Assembly (NCBI RefSeq): GCF_038022665.1
Contig: NZ_CP150629.1
Span: forward strand, 372,001 to 436,000
Reading direction: 5' to 3'
Length of the DNA: 64,000 bases
From: Methanolobus sp. WCC4
GTDB taxonomy: Archaea > Halobacteriota > Methanosarcinia > Methanosarcinales > Methanosarcinaceae
Shown: positions 37,234 through 44,431 of the stretch, piece after piece
How the letters are laid out: the number at the start of each line of letters is the position of its first letter
How positions within the stretch are numbered: the first letter of the stretch is position 1
The notes under the pieces: model-generated
The model's input: the letters and a program-made list of their open reading frames with translations, nothing else
Told to the model about the DNA's origin: nothing
Database searches by the model: none
Made by a program: the position numbers and the translations under genes

Positions 37234-39348
37234 TCAGAACTTACTTCTTAATTTATCATAGAAAACCTGTTCTTTTCCTGTTGTCTTCCGGGATAGACGC
37301 TCCACGATCAATTCAGGAGTACTCTTTGCAACATAATTGTAGCGTGGACTCCTGTCAACAATCAGATTCAGTTCTGGATCGAGTCCACTTGCCTCGATCC
37401 CGTCCACCCTTATGTCGCACGTCGTGTTCTCCATGATCTGTTCTGAAAGGTGGGATACGAATATGGACATTGTGCCACTGTTCTCACTAAGCACTTCCAG
37501 GATACCCGCCATGATCTTTGCAGAGGCACCTGGCTCGGTTATTGATTCCAGTTCATCTGCCAGCACGAATTTTTCAGATTCATCGGCAACAACTGAGAAC
37601 TCAGTAAGTGTTGTCTCGAATGCCCCTGCATCAAGAGTTCCCTTTGACTTGGCAAAGTAGTAAAAAGAATCCGTAAGAGAGAGTTCCATTGCCTCAGCAG
37701 GTACCGGGAAGCCCATATGTGCAAGGATAATACTCTGTGCCAGAAGTTCCAGAAGTGATGTCTTACCTCCTGAGTTAACACCACTCAACAAGACTACCTT
37801 ACTCGTTTCATCTTCCGGGCTGAACTTGTTCTCACCCACTGAATAATCAATTGGTATCACATCACCATGCCTGGAAAGCAGGAAAAGGTTCCTTCCGCCT
37901 TTGAAGCCGATTCCCGTGTTGTCCGATATATCGGGCATGACAAGACCATATTCAAGTGCAAAAGAACCGATGGCAAAGCCCACATCGAAATCAAGAACCT
38001 CCTTAGCCAGTTCCCTTGATAGCTCCCGGTAAGAAGAGAGTATACGAGAAACATCACGCTTATGGTCGAATTTCCTTTTCCGGGCCTTTTTATCCAGATA
38101 ATGCTTCAAAGCGGTGAGGCTATCAACATCGGCCTCTGCAGGATGTGTGATATCTTCCGGGAAAAGAGAATCGACCATCAGTCTTTCTTTCTTCTCCAAT
38201 TGAAGATCAGTGCATATCCGCTCCACTCCCTGTTTGATAATGGAGTGATAGCTCTTGTGAAGTGTCTTACCAAGCATTTCCTTAAGTTCAATGGAACCGT
38301 TCATGACCTTCAGCATATCCTGACCACTTAACGTCATCTGGCTCTTTTCAAGGCACGAGTTCAGTTCATCATTGACAAAGGCCACTGAGTCTGAAACAGA
38401 AGATTGGAGTCTTTCGATCGCGCTGGTGATCCGGTCCAGTTCTTCATCAGTCCCATGAACAATATCCCCATCCTCATCGATCAGGGACAACGTAGAGGCA
38501 AGCAGTTCAAGGGTATCATCATCCATCCTGTCAAAGAAACGGATACCTCTGGAGCGTAGCAACCTTACGACCTTTATAGATGATTCCAGTGACTTCAGAT
38601 TTCGGGAGAATGCGAATATCTCCTTTTCCGGTATAACCTTGAAATCCTCAAGGTCCTCAAGATCAGTAATGAATTCAGGCTCCACATCCTCAGGGAAATC
38701 GAAGGCCAGATAATCATCACCTACGGCGATCACCTGCGAGAATCCCCGGGAAACATCGATAAACTCTGAAAGAGAACGGGTGAAATGAACATCAATAAGG
38801 CCTGCAAAACGTTTTCTCGCATACTCATAGTTGTCCTGGTCGGATGTGATAATGACCCTGTCCCGCACCTTAGGGTACTGATGTTTGAAATTAAGCTGTG
38901 ATACCTTAGGAAGCAACTCTGCGACAGATCCATCTCCTTCAAGGACAGTTGCCGTTTCCATGTAATAAGTGACAGAATTACGGATCTCCATGATCTTTTC
39001 AGCTTTAGTAGCAGGATATGGGAAGAACACATGCAGTTTATCCTTCGAGTAACGAGTGTGGGCAAATTCCTTGATAAGGTCAAGAATTTTCTCATAGACA
39101 TCCATGGATTCCCCTGTCCTCAGGAAATCAGTAACGTTCACACCTTCCACCCTGGAAGCTACATCCTGTATAAGAGAGATGGCATAACGTTGCCCAATAC
39201 CTTCCACCTCAGAGATGCTGGCGATATCACCGGCAAGTATAGCATCAAGTGCCTGCCCCTCACTTCCAAAATGTTCAACAAAGCGTTTCGACATCTTATC
39301 CCCTATACGGGGAATGTCCTGTAGTGTTCTGACCTCGGCTAACATCAT
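37234..39348 (-). CDS. MutS-type ATPase with N-terminal tandem HhH motifs
   Basis: 704 aa. N-terminus (about residues 5-60) holds helix-hairpin-helix DNA-binding motifs: LQDIPRIGDKMSKRF and ISEVEGIGQRYAISLI. The middle is helical, MutS core/lever-like. The C-terminal ABC-type ATPase has Walker A LLSGVNSGGKTSLLELLAQS (about 522), Walker B KFVLADELESITEPG and FVSHLSEQI. There is no MutS mismatch-reading domain I and no Smr domain. It belongs to the archaeal MutS-related proteins of uncertain function. The start overlaps the DUF4130 gene stop by 4 bp. GGAGGT sits before a second ATG at 39345. Confidence 0.85.
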   Translation of the reverse strand: MMLAEVRTLQDIPRIGDKMSKRFVEHFGSEGQALDAILAGDIASISEVEGIGQRYAISLIQDVASRVEGVNVTDFLRTGESMDVYEKILDLIKEFAHTRYSKDKLHVFFPYPATKAEKIMEIRNSVTYYMETATVLEGDGSVAELLPKVSQLNFKHQYPKVRDRVIITSDQDNYEYARKRFAGLIDVHFTRSLSEFIDVSRGFSQVIAVGDDYLAFDFPEDVEPEFITDLEDLEDFKVIPEKEIFAFSRNLKSLESSIKVVRLLRSRGIRFFDRMDDDTLELLASTLSLIDEDGDIVHGTDEELDRITSAIERLQSSVSDSVAFVNDELNSCLEKSQMTLSGQDMLKVMNGSIELKEMLGKTLHKSYHSIIKQGVERICTDLQLEKKERLMVDSLFPEDITHPAEADVDSLTALKHYLDKKARKRKFDHKRDVSRILSSYRELSRELAKEVLDFDVGFAIGSFALEYGLVMPDISDNTGIGFKGGRNLFLLSRHGDVIPIDYSVGENKFSPEDETSKVVLLSGVNSGGKTSLLELLAQSIILAHMGFPVPAEAMELSLTDSFYYFAKSKGTLDAGAFETTLTEFSVVADESEKFVLADELESITEPGASAKIMAGILEVLSENSGTMSIFVSHLSEQIMENTTCDIRVDGIEASGLDPELNLIVDRSPRYNYVAKSTPELIVERLSRKTTGKEQVFYDKLRSKF

Positions 39349-40190
39349 ACCTCCGAATGGGATGCAAAACTATCCAATGTACAATTTGCAATTCCCCTTT
39401 CAACCTTGTAGCTATCCCTCTCTGACATCTTGCTCATGGATGCAGAAGCCTTAGGTTGTAACTGTCTTGCATGACCTTTGTTCCTTCTTTTAGGGATGAA
39501 CTGTGAATCATAATACATATCCCACAGGTCATCCACCTCATCGCACTTGTCTGCAAATTCCAGGCTTCCTGCGAGAGATGAAGCTACCTGTGTATAATGC
39601 TCCAGCCCCACATGACCTCCATTGCCGATCCACGCAACATCCCCTTCTATCACAGAGACCGGAAGGTCGGGATTCTTCCTTGCGAGCCAGCGGCAGAACA
39701 TGTCACCGATCTGATGAGGGGATTCCACTTTCACAGTGAGCACACCATTAACAGAATACGGACGGGCAAACATGCATAAGCGGTGATATGAACGGCTCAC
39801 ATCACGCATGTAATTATAATACTTCTTACCTGTGGCACTCTTCCCGGAGTAAAGCAGTTCAGCATTGCCCCTGCAGGAACACAGGAAATGTACAAGCTCT
39901 ATAGCTCTTGAGCTTCTATGTCTCAGCACCAAAGATACATATCCTTCAACATCAGGATCTCGCTGGAACATCCTGGGATGCTGCTTCCCAAAAAGATGCC
40001 CTGTCAGCTTAGTGGTATCCACACTACCCCTGAAACCAAGGGCTTTGACCTTTTCTATGCCGGAAAAATCCATCTTTTGCTGCAGATCCTCCCTGTCCTT
40101 CGCAGACATGAGTTCGCATCCAGGATCCTCCGCTACCTCCATACATGCAAGGAGAACACCTTCCACCGTTTCCCTGAATGCCACTATCAT
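39345..40190 (-). CDS. DUF4130 DNA-metabolism protein (radical SAM-linked)
   Basis: 281 aa. Contains the DUF4130 core: RDPDVEGYVSLVLRHRSSRA, YYNYMRDVSRSYHRLCMFARP, FCRWLARKNPDLPVSVIEGD. In bacteria this domain is a partner of, or fused to, family-4-like uracil-DNA glycosylases (TIGR03914/TIGR03915), always next to the radical SAM protein of the adjacent gene. No glycosylase domain is present here. The C-terminal tail is basic and polar (FIPKRRNKGHARQLQPKAS). It overlaps both neighbours by 4 bp. Biochemical role unknown. Confidence 0.85.
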   Translation of the reverse strand: MIVAFRETVEGVLLACMEVAEDPGCELMSAKDREDLQQKMDFSGIEKVKALGFRGSVDTTKLTGHLFGKQHPRMFQRDPDVEGYVSLVLRHRSSRAIELVHFLCSCRGNAELLYSGKSATGKKYYNYMRDVSRSYHRLCMFARPYSVNGVLTVKVESPHQIGDMFCRWLARKNPDLPVSVIEGDVAWIGNGGHVGLEHYTQVASSLAGSLEFADKCDEVDDLWDMYYDSQFIPKRRNKGHARQLQPKASASMSKMSERDSYKVERGIANCTLDSFASHSEV

Positions 40191-41329
40191 GCTCCCACCC
40201 CTGCAAAAGAGAACAGGTTAGTCTGCCTTTTTCCGTTTATCTCGATGAAAGGACGTGCACGACCGAGTACAACACCCATACGTGCAAGCTCCTTTTCCGA
40301 ACTTACAGGCCTTGACTGAAGGATCCGGTTAGCTCCCACCGGACCGATTCCCGGTACCCTGAGAAGGTCCTCCCTGCTTGCAGTGTTGATATTCACAGGG
40401 AACATATCGGGACTGCATGAGGCAAGTAGCATCTTCGGGTCTGCATCAGGCAGAAATCCGTTGTCATCAAGAACACTGTCAAGGTCGCGTGCGGTCAGAC
40501 CATAATCCTTCAAAAGATAGGATGTCTGATACAGCCTCACCTCCCTCCACAGAGGTGATGCCTCGTTGTTCTCAAGAGGAGTGAACGGAACCGGGTCAAA
40601 GCTCATGAAATAAGGCCTCCTTAGTTCGTATTTATCCATGAACCTCTCGACAGTCCCTATGATCTCCCTGTCAGGTTCCTGTAATGCGCCCACTACGAAC
40701 TGCGTGTCGTTGGCACCTATTATCCTTCCCCTGAAACCTGCCTCACGTCTTTTCTTATTGATGAGGTCACGCGTCCATTGTAAACGCTGGAGTACATCGT
40801 TCTTATAATCGAAATTCGGACATATTTCAGAATAGTTCATTGAACTGGTGGTCTCTGCGTTCACACCGAACTTATTCGCAGTATCAGCGATCTCCTCAAG
40901 AAGATACTTCGGGGTACCCGGCATCACACGTATGTGTATGTAACCGGTAAAGCCCTGGTTGCGCAGAAGACTTGCAACCTCCAGTTGTTTCTCAGCCGTC
41001 CTTTCTGCATCTCCAATTACGCCAGATGACAGGAACAGGCCCTCTATTGCATTCCTTCTATAGAAGGACCATGTTATCTTCACGATCTCCTCAGGTGTAA
41101 GTGATGCACGCACAGAGTCCCTGCCACATCTGTTAGGACAATACGTACACTCCCCTGAGCACGCATTGGTCATCAGTGTCTTATAGAGCTGTATGCAGCG
41201 TCCATCCGGTCCAAAGGCATGACAGACAGCACTCTGGTTGCAACTGTCATACTTCGTGCCCTCGGACAATACTCTCATCCTTTCCATAAGCGTCATATGG
41301 TGCTCATTAACAGGATTTCTGTGACTCAT
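40187..41329 (-). CDS. Putative DNA modification/repair radical SAM protein
   Basis: 380 aa, TIGR03916-like (UDG-linked radical SAM). The cluster motif CSGECTYC (CxxxCxxC) is preceded by other Cys residues (YDSCNQSAVC, DGRC) and followed by NRCGRDS. Motifs LFLSSGVIGDAERT and NAETTSSMN fit the SAM barrel. The C-terminus carries a helix-hairpin-helix, PVNINTASREDLLRVPGIGP (about 315-334), so it likely binds DNA. First gene of the three-gene operon with DUF4130 and the MutS-type ATPase. Lesion and reaction unknown. Confidence 0.88.
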   Translation of the reverse strand: MSHRNPVNEHHMTLMERMRVLSEGTKYDSCNQSAVCHAFGPDGRCIQLYKTLMTNACSGECTYCPNRCGRDSVRASLTPEEIVKITWSFYRRNAIEGLFLSSGVIGDAERTAEKQLEVASLLRNQGFTGYIHIRVMPGTPKYLLEEIADTANKFGVNAETTSSMNYSEICPNFDYKNDVLQRLQWTRDLINKKRREAGFRGRIIGANDTQFVVGALQEPDREIIGTVERFMDKYELRRPYFMSFDPVPFTPLENNEASPLWREVRLYQTSYLLKDYGLTARDLDSVLDDNGFLPDADPKMLLASCSPDMFPVNINTASREDLLRVPGIGPVGANRILQSRPVSSEKELARMGVVLGRARPFIEINGKRQTNLFSFAGVGA

Positions 41330-41521: not shown

Positions 41522-42076
41522 CTATTCCTCTTTTATCTTCACATTCACTTTCAATATGCTTATTGGCTCAAGTTTCTTCCACATGACGGTGGAGTCCTTA
41601 TCAAAAACGAACTCGTTGACATTCTGATCAGAGAATTCGCCATTGACCTCGTAGATGAAGAAGCCATCTTCACCGTTGGTGGACACGACATTATCCTGAC
41701 CGTGGACATTCTTGACCTCCACAACAGCAGCCTTCTTAAGTGTTTCAAGAAGAGTAGCACCTTTTTCAACTTCTACAGTCCTTGCAGGTGCGAATATATC
41801 AAGTGCATGGAAAATATTCTTGTTATTGAGTTGCAGGACATGTGTCTTGCCATATACCTTACGCTGAATAAGGTCTGCAGCTTCCAGAATGTTCGCATGC
41901 TTTGCAGCAACCGGAACAGAAATGCACAGCTCCCTGGCAAGCTCTGATATATGCATCTCGCCCTCAGTAAGCTTCTGCAACATCCTGAGTCTGGTCTCGC
42001 TTCCAAGAGCACTGAACAGTTTCAAACGGTCTGCGTTCTCCTGGTCCATAGAATCATTGTTATCATTAGTGCTCAT
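41522..42076 (-). CDS. ArsR-family transcription regulator
   Basis: 184 aa. Winged helix (about residues 17-80): KLFSALGSETRLRMLQKLTEGEMHISEL, VAAKHANILEAADLIQRK. A beta-rich C-terminal half (DGFFIYEVNGEFSDQNVNEF) may be a sensor; no Cys metal-binding box is visible. The gene stands alone between the DNA-repair operon and cbiZ cluster. Confidence 0.88.
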   Translation of the reverse strand: MSTNDNNDSMDQENADRLKLFSALGSETRLRMLQKLTEGEMHISELARELCISVPVAAKHANILEAADLIQRKVYGKTHVLQLNNKNIFHALDIFAPARTVEVEKGATLLETLKKAAVVEVKNVHGQDNVVSTNGEDGFFIYEVNGEFSDQNVNEFVFDKDSTVMWKKLEPISILKVNVKIKEE

Positions 42077-42218: not shown

Positions 42219-43199
42219 TCATCCGTGTAAAGCTCTTTTCTGTGTAGCTATCTTCTCATCAAGGGAAGAAAGATCGGTCGAAATGAACTCATGTGTCAGG
42301 AAAGCAGGAGAAACGAGATTAATGATCTCACGACATCTATTGCTTGTAAAAGGCATATGATGGTCCATCTGTTCAAGGACCCCTATTGTAGAAATGAGAC
42401 GTTCATGAAAGGACATTTCATCAAAACCTTCCGGGACCCCCATTTCCAGAGAACTCCGCATATACTCACCTGAGAGACTGCAATGGAAATGCATACCTTC
42501 TATCTTTTCTATGAACTCGTCCGAATGAGCAGAAAGGACATCAAGAACCACATCTATAGCACAATCCTCATTTTCACAGCGCATTGTCGCATTCATCAGA
42601 TGTCCCGTGTCAAGTATGAATGCCCAGTTATCAAAATCCAGCATATCAGCAAAGTGCTCCACGTTCATCGGCTCAAGGAAAGTAAGTCCCGGCCACCAGA
42701 GGTTCTCAAAGAAAAGACGTACTGGCGGTTCACCACCAGGATACCTGGAGACTGCTTCGTTGAGGAAGTCTGCTGTCGTCTGGAGAACATCGTGGTCTGT
42801 GCAATCAAAGCAGCGTGTGAAGACCTGCTCCATTTCAGCATAGGAAACATGGAACACACCATATGAGACATCCAGCTTAGCTGCGTTCTCAAGAGAAGCA
42901 CAGAAATTATCTATGACCTCGGCTTTGCTCCCTCCTCCGAAAACATAGACCTTCTCGAACTCCTCCATCTCCTGAGAGAATGCTGAAGGGTCTGTCCATG
43001 CCCTGTGGCGCCCCATCCAGTATGGAAGATGAACACTTTCTATAATGTCCACCGGAATATCCGGAAGGGGTGATGAATCCACAAATAGCTCCACACCATC
43101 GAGATCATGTCTTACAAGGAAATTCCTTATCAGATCCCAGTTAGAATCGAACATCCCCATGTCAGACTCGTAAAGGGACAGGTTCATCAGTTCTTTCAT
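42219..43199 (-). CDS. TIM-barrel (AP endonuclease 2 / xylose isomerase-like) protein
   Basis: 326 aa from the ATG at 43199 with SD AAAGGTG. TIM-barrel pattern: DLDGVELFVDSSP, VHLPYWMGRH, RLFFENLWWPGLTFL, WAFILDTGHLMNA, EGMHFHCSLSGEYMRS. His, Glu and Asp residues at strand ends suggest a metal site. It follows cbiZ by 44 nt on the same strand. A role in cobamide lower-ligand or remodelling chemistry is a guess from position only. Confidence 0.75.
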   Translation of the reverse strand: MKELMNLSLYESDMGMFDSNWDLIRNFLVRHDLDGVELFVDSSPLPDIPVDIIESVHLPYWMGRHRAWTDPSAFSQEMEEFEKVYVFGGGSKAEVIDNFCASLENAAKLDVSYGVFHVSYAEMEQVFTRCFDCTDHDVLQTTADFLNEAVSRYPGGEPPVRLFFENLWWPGLTFLEPMNVEHFADMLDFDNWAFILDTGHLMNATMRCENEDCAIDVVLDVLSAHSDEFIEKIEGMHFHCSLSGEYMRSSLEMGVPEGFDEMSFHERLISTIGVLEQMDHHMPFTSNRCREIINLVSPAFLTHEFISTDLSSLDEKIATQKRALHG

Positions 43200-43243
43200 G
43201 ATCACACCTTTAAAATTACATCCTTATCCGGGATAGGAACCTA

Positions 43244-44431
43244 TCATCGGGAACTGCAGACCCCTTCAGTATTACAGTTCTTTGCCATCCATGCAGTGAC
43301 ACGTATCCAGTTCTCGATTATGGAATCCTTCTCATCTGTCAGGACCTCAAAAGGTATCGAGGCCTCCATCTCAAGCATCATTGGCAGGCCCTTCATGATA
43401 GAAACAGCTACCCTCCTGCCGGCAGTTTCCGGTATGAGTCCCCATGAGATCTCATCCACTATATGCAGGATGGAACCTGTTGCTCCGACAAGTACTGGAT
43501 TCCGGGATAATTCCCTGAGTATCTTGAAAAAGGTCGCCTTGCGGTTATCACCTTCCATATGTGAGGCTACCTTCCAGTAATGCCCCTCATCGATACCAAA
43601 CCTCTCAAGCCTCACAAGCATATCCCTCTGTGAGAGGACCGTGAGGTCGGACTGAAGTTCAAGGGCCTTGTGGGTGCACTCAATGACAACCTTACCAATA
43701 AGCTCCCCTAATTTGGAATGATGTCCGGCATCAGTCAACAAAAGAGAGCTTGTACCATCCGATACCACAGCCATCATATCAGTACCCGAACCAGTAGCGA
43801 TACCTGTAGAATATCGACTGGGTGCCATGAGTTGCTGCAGAGCTGCGGTCTTGGCCTCCGTTGCAGTGATGACCGCCCTTTCCATTGCATAGACGGGAAG
43901 GTCTGCACCGATCACCAGAATGGTGTTTATGGTACCCTGAATGAACTGATGTGAACCGTCCTCCTGATAATAAGATGCAGGGTCTCCGGCACGACCGCCA
44001 TTGACCTCGATACCTGCGGTCATGATAGCCGTCACTTCCACACCACGGAAGGAACTCGTCACTATTGCAACATTATCCATGTTAGCAGCGGTCAGAAGCC
44101 CCGAAGATGTGTCAGGGTCCGCACCCAGTCTTTTTGCAATAATAGAAAGATACGCATGAATGCTTCCCCCTTCCAGCTCCTTTGGAGCATGCTTACCTTT
44201 TGGAACCCTGTGATTGAAGATGGTCCTTATGTCCTCCCTGTATCCGCCATTAAGCCAGGATGTGGTAAGTGCTTTCCTTCCTTCCGGCAGACTGAGGACG
44301 ATAGAATCCTTGCGACGGTAGACCTTCTCCTTACCGGTAGTCTCGAAAAGAAGGAGATCCTTTTCTTCCTGATCATTTCCCCGGGACTCATGTCCACCCT
44401 GGTCTTCTGCGTTTGTGATTCTATCTGTCAT
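43244..44431 (-). CDS. cbiZ: Adenosylcobinamide amidohydrolase
   Basis: 395 aa. CbiZ cleaves the aminopropanol side chain of adenosylcobinamide so that archaea can salvage it through cobyric acid. Family segments: VLSLPEGRKALTTSWLNGGY, DTSSGLLTAANMDNVAIV, VTAIMTAGIEVNGGRAGDPA and the YSTGIATGSGTDMMAVVSD motif. A charged N-terminal extension (about 25 residues) and a long C-terminal part make it larger than the minimal CbiZ. Fits corrinoid-dependent methylotrophic methanogenesis. Confidence 0.9.
   Translation of the reverse strand: MTDRITNAEDQGGHESRGNDQEEKDLLLFETTGKEKVYRRKDSIVLSLPEGRKALTTSWLNGGYREDIRTIFNHRVPKGKHAPKELEGGSIHAYLSIIAKRLGADPDTSSGLLTAANMDNVAIVTSSFRGVEVTAIMTAGIEVNGGRAGDPASYYQEDGSHQFIQGTINTILVIGADLPVYAMERAVITATEAKTAALQQLMAPSRYSTGIATGSGTDMMAVVSDGTSSLLLTDAGHHSKLGELIGKVVIECTHKALELQSDLTVLSQRDMLVRLERFGIDEGHYWKVASHMEGDNRKATFFKILRELSRNPVLVGATGSILHIVDEISWGLIPETAGRRVAVSIMKGLPMMLEMEASIPFEVLTDEKDSIIENWIRVTAWMAKNCNTEGVCSSR

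Follow-up and report, generated by a model that had tools for sequence, protein, structure and literature searches.

What task, if any, is shared by a radical S-adenosylmethionine (SAM) protein, a DUF4130 protein and a MutS-type ATPase whose genes follow one another on the same strand of an archaeal genome? The question is raised by a locus of Methanolobus sp. WCC4 that lies within positions C1:372001-436000 of the complete 2.85-Mb genome (64,000 nucleotides, hereafter the window), and for which the nearest named relative is Methanolobus profundi (radical SAM protein 97% identical). The three genes, two of whose products carry a helix-hairpin-helix (HhH), are as follows.

40187..41329, minus strand: radical SAM gene, first of the operon; 380 aa, radical SAM protein with a C-terminal HhH, TIGR03916-like/COG4277
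39345..40190, minus strand: DUF4130 gene, second; 281 aa, without a glycosylase domain
37234..39348, minus strand: HhH-MutS ATPase gene, third; 704 aa, probably of the archaeal MutS5 type

With a probability of roughly 0.6, we regard the radical SAM and DUF4130 proteins as a DNA repair or modification module tethered to the replication clamp, with the MutS5 protein as an accessory that is probably co-expressed with them in the Methanosarcinaceae. Binding to proliferating cell nuclear antigen (PCNA), DNA as the substrate and a functional partnership with MutS are what we infer from the evidence given below.

A predicted clamp-binding motif ends the radical SAM protein

The tail of the radical SAM protein, KRQTNLFSFAGVGA, is a PCNA-interacting protein (PIP) box (KRQTNLFSF). 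This motif is new here and was missed by the preliminary description of the locus.

40205..40225, minus strand: PIP box QTNLFSF of the radical SAM protein (residues 369-375), predicted to bind PCNA; 33/33 distinct Methanosarcinaceae tails, background 17/982

Both the PIP box and the beta-clamp motif are used in their generally known consensus forms. Scored as Qxx[LIMV]xx[FWYH] within the last 20 residues, the PIP pattern occurs in 76 of 118 distinct archaeal radical SAM sequences; shuffling of the tails gives an expectation of 2.65, and of 982 unrelated open reading frames (ORFs) at these loci 17 have it. Clade labels, here and below, were for part of the genomes assigned from genome size and kinship. 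All distinct tails carry it in the Methanosarcinaceae (33/33), in Methanocella (3/3), in DPANN (3/3) and among the Archaeoglobi-like solo proteins (11/11), as do 5 of 9 Methanomicrobiales-like tails. The FEN1 protein encoded in the same genome has the C terminus GQSTLDKWF; two XPG/FEN1-type genes are present (C1:720028 and C1:1858211), one of them with this clear PIP box.

The PIP box is missing from the 20 bacterial homologues examined, every one of which ends in a beta-clamp motif. Nineteen of these are QLx[LIM][FLWI]-type pentapeptides (QLSLF, QLALF, QLKLF, QLSIF and similar), and the Bacteroides tail has the hexapeptide form QLLLDF. The pentapeptide pattern is absent from all 66 other bacterial ORFs and all 145 archaeal radical SAM proteins that were compared. 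Because the clamp motif directly abuts the HhH in archaea and follows a linker of variable length in most bacteria, the two motifs look as though they were acquired independently. Tail counts are not independent events, as sequences are related within clades; the case is instead built on several deep archaeal clades and on the switch of motif type between the two domains of life. These comparisons point to the radical SAM protein as a sliding-clamp-associated enzyme, and bacteria and archaea seem to have arrived at clamp tethering by separate routes.

The partner proteins have less distinctive tails. A (T)LxxF pattern lies within the last 15 residues of 84 of 88 archaeal DUF4130 proteins, compared with 253 of 982 in the background; since the glutamine is missing, this tail is only PIP-like. 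A PIP box on the MutS protein is unsupported (4 of 59 tails).

39366..39377, minus strand: PIP-like tail LDSF of the DUF4130 protein (residues 272-275), without the canonical Q; from tail counts

The radical SAM protein is related to the DUF4130-linked family

Pfam assigns the protein a Radical_SAM domain (33.4 bits) and a C-terminal HhH (30.4 bits). Three elements are of particular relevance.

41138..41161, minus strand: CX3CX2C motif (C57/C61/C64) of the radical SAM [4Fe-4S] cluster; invariant in three alignments
41195..41224, minus strand: accessory motif CHxFxxxGRC (residues 36-45), signature of DUF4130-neighbouring radical SAM proteins in the motif/neighbour table
40283..40396, minus strand: C-terminal HhH (residues 312-349), PF12836 and PF00633

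The accessory motif is N-terminal of the radical SAM cysteines and tracks the DUF4130 gene: motif and neighbour are both present in 115 cases, both absent in 30 and mixed in 8, counts that are inflated by overlap among loci shared between genomes. Several of the eight mixed cases are contig ends or missed ORFs. The preliminary description had named the two families TIGR03916 and TIGR03915, and the relationship stands, but neither curated cut-off is reached. TIGR03916 (rSAM_link_UDG) scores 290.1 bits over residues 26-370 (cut-off 343.5), and TIGR03915 scores 32.2 bits on the DUF4130 protein (cut-off 112.25). Of the TIGR03916 features, CX3CX2C, the C-terminal HhH and the adjoining DUF4130 gene are all present. 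A PDB profile search with the radical SAM protein returns HhH proteins, its best radical SAM matches being ThiH and HydE, both weak. Relatives of TIGR03916 also occur in 10 phage-labelled records (H66-H75), mostly human gut 'Bacteriophage sp.' fragments, which may be either genuine phage genes or bacterial contigs assigned to phages in error.

DUF4130 is a constant partner without a glycosylase

The DUF4130 structure model (pLDDT, the predicted local distance difference test, 83) has DHH-superfamily phosphoesterases as about 30 of its 32 top structural matches in the PDB.

39450..39872, minus strand: DUF4130 domain (PF13566, residues 107-247), 36.1 bits against a cut-off of 27; also from the predicted structure

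The fold may thus be DHH-like, a weak assignment from the model, in which RecJ, NrnA and PggH are the points of resemblance. Set against this, TM-scores (template modelling scores) are below 0.5, the catalytic Asp/His set of DHH/DHHA1 phosphoesterases is not conserved, and sequence profiles miss that family: Pfam at loose E-values finds only DUF4130 in number. The conserved residues are R143, W223, Q230, H159, Y227, S229, R235, N237 and P246, with no Asp and no metal-binding DxD/DHH residues among them. As there are zero conserved aspartates, a role as an active metallophosphoesterase is unlikely, and we rejected an active DHH enzyme as the identity of this protein. In Methanohalophilus profundi (L153:5119-5978), the DUF4130 frame is broken into two ORFs of 157 and 144 aa, by either a frameshift or a sequencing error.

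No uracil-DNA glycosylase (UDG) domain was found in the operon, and the sole PF03167 match in the whole genome lies 2.2 Mb away. It carries GEAPG, typical of family 4, not the GEQPG motif of UdgX (PMC10359453), and a glycosylase hidden in the operon was therefore rejected. The absence noted in the preliminary description is thus real, but it is not special. In Alpha- and Betaproteobacteria the partner of the radical SAM protein is a DUF4130-UdgX fusion, and in Pusillibacter and Bacteroides it is DUF4130 alone; because some bacterial pairs also lack a glycosylase, its absence here is not unusual.

The bacterial TIGR03916/TIGR03915/TIGR03914 systems share with this locus the gene order, CX3CX2C, CHxFxxxGRC, an HhH after the radical SAM domain and a C-terminal clamp motif. 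The window proteins differ in falling below both NCBIfam cut-offs, in having no UdgX, in ending with a PIP box rather than a beta-clamp motif, and in the attached MutS gene. COG1573-COG4277 operons are predicted LexA/SOS targets in Bacteroidetes and are reported in Verrucomicrobia and Alphaproteobacteria (PMC8565304), and DUF4130 is a predicted mutagenesis-related enzyme (PMC3765255). On one Thermoplasmata contig (L168:312-3452), genes for the radical SAM protein, DUF4130, an OmdA-domain protein and an AlkD-type DNA alkylation repair protein stand in a row. A literature search by the names TIGR03915, TIGR03916 and PF13566 found no paper, nor, in the available literature, did searches on the biochemistry of the radical SAM or DUF4130 proteins or on radical SAM together with a sliding clamp.

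The third gene encodes an additional MutS-type ATPase

Pfam matches only two regions of the third protein, an HhH and MutS_V.

39166..39330, minus strand: N-terminal HhH of the MutS protein (residues 7-61); PF14520/HhH_5, 30.4 bits, with Topoisomerase V and XPF HhH matches
37438..37791, minus strand: MutS domain V ATPase (residues 520-637); PF00488 MutS_V, 34.7 bits

The Walker A sequence GVNSGGKT (523-530) and the DE at 598-599 are invariant in 17 homologues. Because the PDB profile aligns just the clamp/ATPase part (residues 404-638) and the HhH, the preliminary statement that the classical mismatch-recognition domain (domain I) is absent is upheld at the sequence level. The structure model (pLDDT 85) resembles the cores of MutS and MutS2, with 7qv3 among the fold matches. 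The genome also encodes a separate 895-aa MutS and, about 2.5 kb from it, a MutL (C1:327-331 kb); the HhH-MutS is consequently an extra protein, and its identification as the classical mismatch-repair MutS was rejected.

Haloarchaeal-type genomes mostly contain at least two matches to the window MutS family, the best one full length, as would be expected for MutS5a/b. From this genomic distribution the protein is probably of the archaeal MutS5 type, which, like Haloferax MutS5a/b and Pyrococcus MutS5, is a MutS-type ATPase distinct from MutS1; it differs from these in its N-terminal HhH and in adjoining the radical SAM/DUF4130 pair. Haloferax MutS5 is listed as outside mismatch repair (PMC7776575), and Pyrococcus MutS5 is reported to bind Holliday junctions, as cited in PMC11276520.

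The pair extends beyond the one family in which the three-gene order probably arose

The layout first described, three minus-strand genes with two 4-bp overlaps (ATGA), was confirmed at 40187-40190 (radical SAM/DUF4130) and 39345-39348 (DUF4130/MutS), and both outer proteins bear an HhH as claimed. Since the nearest upstream gene is about 190 bp away, a single three-gene operon is plausible from the sequence. Of the 35 named relatives that carry the triple, 26 keep the first overlap; at the second junction the genes overlap in 15 and are otherwise no more than about 44 bp apart.

A co-occurrence check bore out the claimed conservation of gene order across the Methanosarcinaceae and the conserved pairing of the radical SAM and DUF4130 genes. 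In 60 relatives, the DUF4130 gene is present in 30 and, apart from contig breaks, stands between the other two. Within a set of 393 genomes of the phylum, 131 have radical SAM relatives, 51 DUF4130 and 233 HhH-MutS; the radical SAM and MutS genes each occur in 51/51 DUF4130 genomes, and the pair is adjacent in every sampled case where the contig permits. The three-gene order is seen in Methanolobus, Methanococcoides, Methanohalophilus, Methanosalsum, some Methanomethylovorans and ANME-3 (anaerobic methanotrophic archaea). The pair lacks an adjoining MutS in Methanocella, Methanothrix, Thermoplasmata, Methanomassiliicoccales, Micrarchaeota and Woesearchaeota, and MutS lacks the pair in other Methanosarcinaceae genera, presumably including Methanosarcina, and in 182 of the 233 MutS-bearing genomes overall. 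That last count disposes of obligate co-occurrence across the operon.

The triple most likely arose once, in the Methanosarcinaceae, because the radical SAM proteins that bear it form one clade (support 100/99), sister to Methanocella (100/99). Locus L033 (genome G030) keeps the order ArsR-MutS-hisB-hisA-hisG without the pair, and Methanocella genome G085 has MutS, hisB, hisA and the pair inside about 14 kb, not in one operon. From these arrangements and the distribution above, we conclude that the radical SAM and DUF4130 pair is a functional unit and that MutS is a later, lineage-specific companion.

Neighbouring genes

The cluster is flanked by hisG-hisA-hisB on the plus strand and by an ArsR-type regulator. 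The regulator gene (41522-42076) lies directly upstream of the operon, occupies the same place in several Methanosarcinaceae and is retained in L033 despite the missing pair; it is a candidate regulator of the operon. Farther upstream, at 42219-44431, an AP_endonuc_2/xylose-isomerase-like gene (with weak, sub-cut-off similarity to CbiR) adjoins a gene for the adenosylcobinamide amidohydrolase CbiZ, which suggests a corrinoid-salvage pair.

A proposed mechanism and its alternatives

In the proposed mechanism, the C-terminal HhH of the radical SAM protein would bind DNA while the PIP box tethers the enzyme to PCNA, a part that the beta-clamp motif would play at the same place in bacterial homologues. 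DUF4130, the constant partner, would probably aid substrate positioning or processing. The MutS5-like HhH ATPase would have joined the operon once, in the Methanosarcinaceae, probably so that a factor for branched or damaged DNA is produced together with the pair, which elsewhere would not require MutS.

Several points weigh against this interpretation. The PIP box is found in 0 of 19 distinct Methanothrix tails and in 1 of 12 from Thermoplasmata and allies, where tails are mostly of an xTTLxxW type that has lost the glutamine, and clamp binding is predicted from motifs alone. For no member of the family did we find enzymatic evidence. MutS2-like proteins are able to act on collided ribosomes, and given the 7qv3 fold match the MutS arm need not belong to DNA repair. 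The his and ArsR flanks are as conserved as the cluster, so gene order alone is no proof of joint function; the link to MutS traces to a single evolutionary event, which makes shared order a weak sign of shared function.

The alternative that survives best, though we think it unlikely, takes up this last point: MutS5 and the pair would be functionally unrelated, inherited together from an ancestral his-region cluster in a slowly rearranging family. The his and ArsR genes flanking the cluster in L043-L045 and L033 fit this account, as does the loose grouping in Methanocella genome G085. The Methanosarcinaceae genes, however, became co-directional and overlap or nearly abut, suggesting that their joint expression was selected for.

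Less probable still is an obligate three-part machine, the inference of the preliminary description, in which MutS, DUF4130 and the radical SAM protein recognize lesions as one complex on damaged DNA. At least six genera conserve the order, with genes that overlap or lie close together, and HhH motifs occur on both the radical SAM and MutS proteins. This model does not sit well with the 182 genomes of the phylum that have MutS alone, with the pairs of Methanocella, Methanothrix, Thermoplasmata and DPANN that have no MutS beside them, or with the pair's absence from L033, where MutS stands between ArsR and hisB.

The direct reversal of a UV lesion in the manner of spore photoproduct lyase, also proposed earlier, is now quite doubtful. 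A radical SAM enzyme with an HhH in a DNA-repair context recalls SplB, which is likewise tied to DNA repair and found in predicted SOS networks. No spore photoproduct lyase matched the window protein in Pfam, NCBIfam or PDB profile searches, and membership of that family was rejected on these profiles; the clamp motif, too, is more suggestive of repair after replication than of the spore type. Least probable is a tRNA- or cofactor-modifying enzyme with a misleading DNA link, for although the best radical SAM profile relatives are the cofactor enzymes ThiH, BioB and LipS and a solo homologue (L105) adjoins a putative RNA methyltransferase gene, the clamp motifs in both domains of life, the HhH, the UdgX fusion partner and the predicted SOS control speak for DNA.

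Implications for the family

The radical SAM, DUF4130 and UDG families have so far been called putative DNA repair proteins from gene context alone. Clamp motifs at the same place, evidently acquired separately, make a specific and cheaply testable claim about where the enzyme works; on a sliding clamp, it would act during or just after replication. More tentatively, and at somewhat less than even odds, TIGR03916/COG4277 may in both domains of life be a clamp-guided radical SAM enzyme whose task behind the fork is to repair or rewrite DNA bases, each domain having evolved its own clamp motif (QLSLF for the beta clamp; QxxLxxF for PCNA), and in the Methanosarcinaceae a MutS5-type branched-DNA ATPase may couple this lesion handling to recombination. 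A radical enzyme that acts on DNA while tethered to a clamp would, if confirmed, represent a new kind of DNA repair, and the Methanosarcinaceae operon offers a setting in which to ask whether MutS5 shares the task of the pair.

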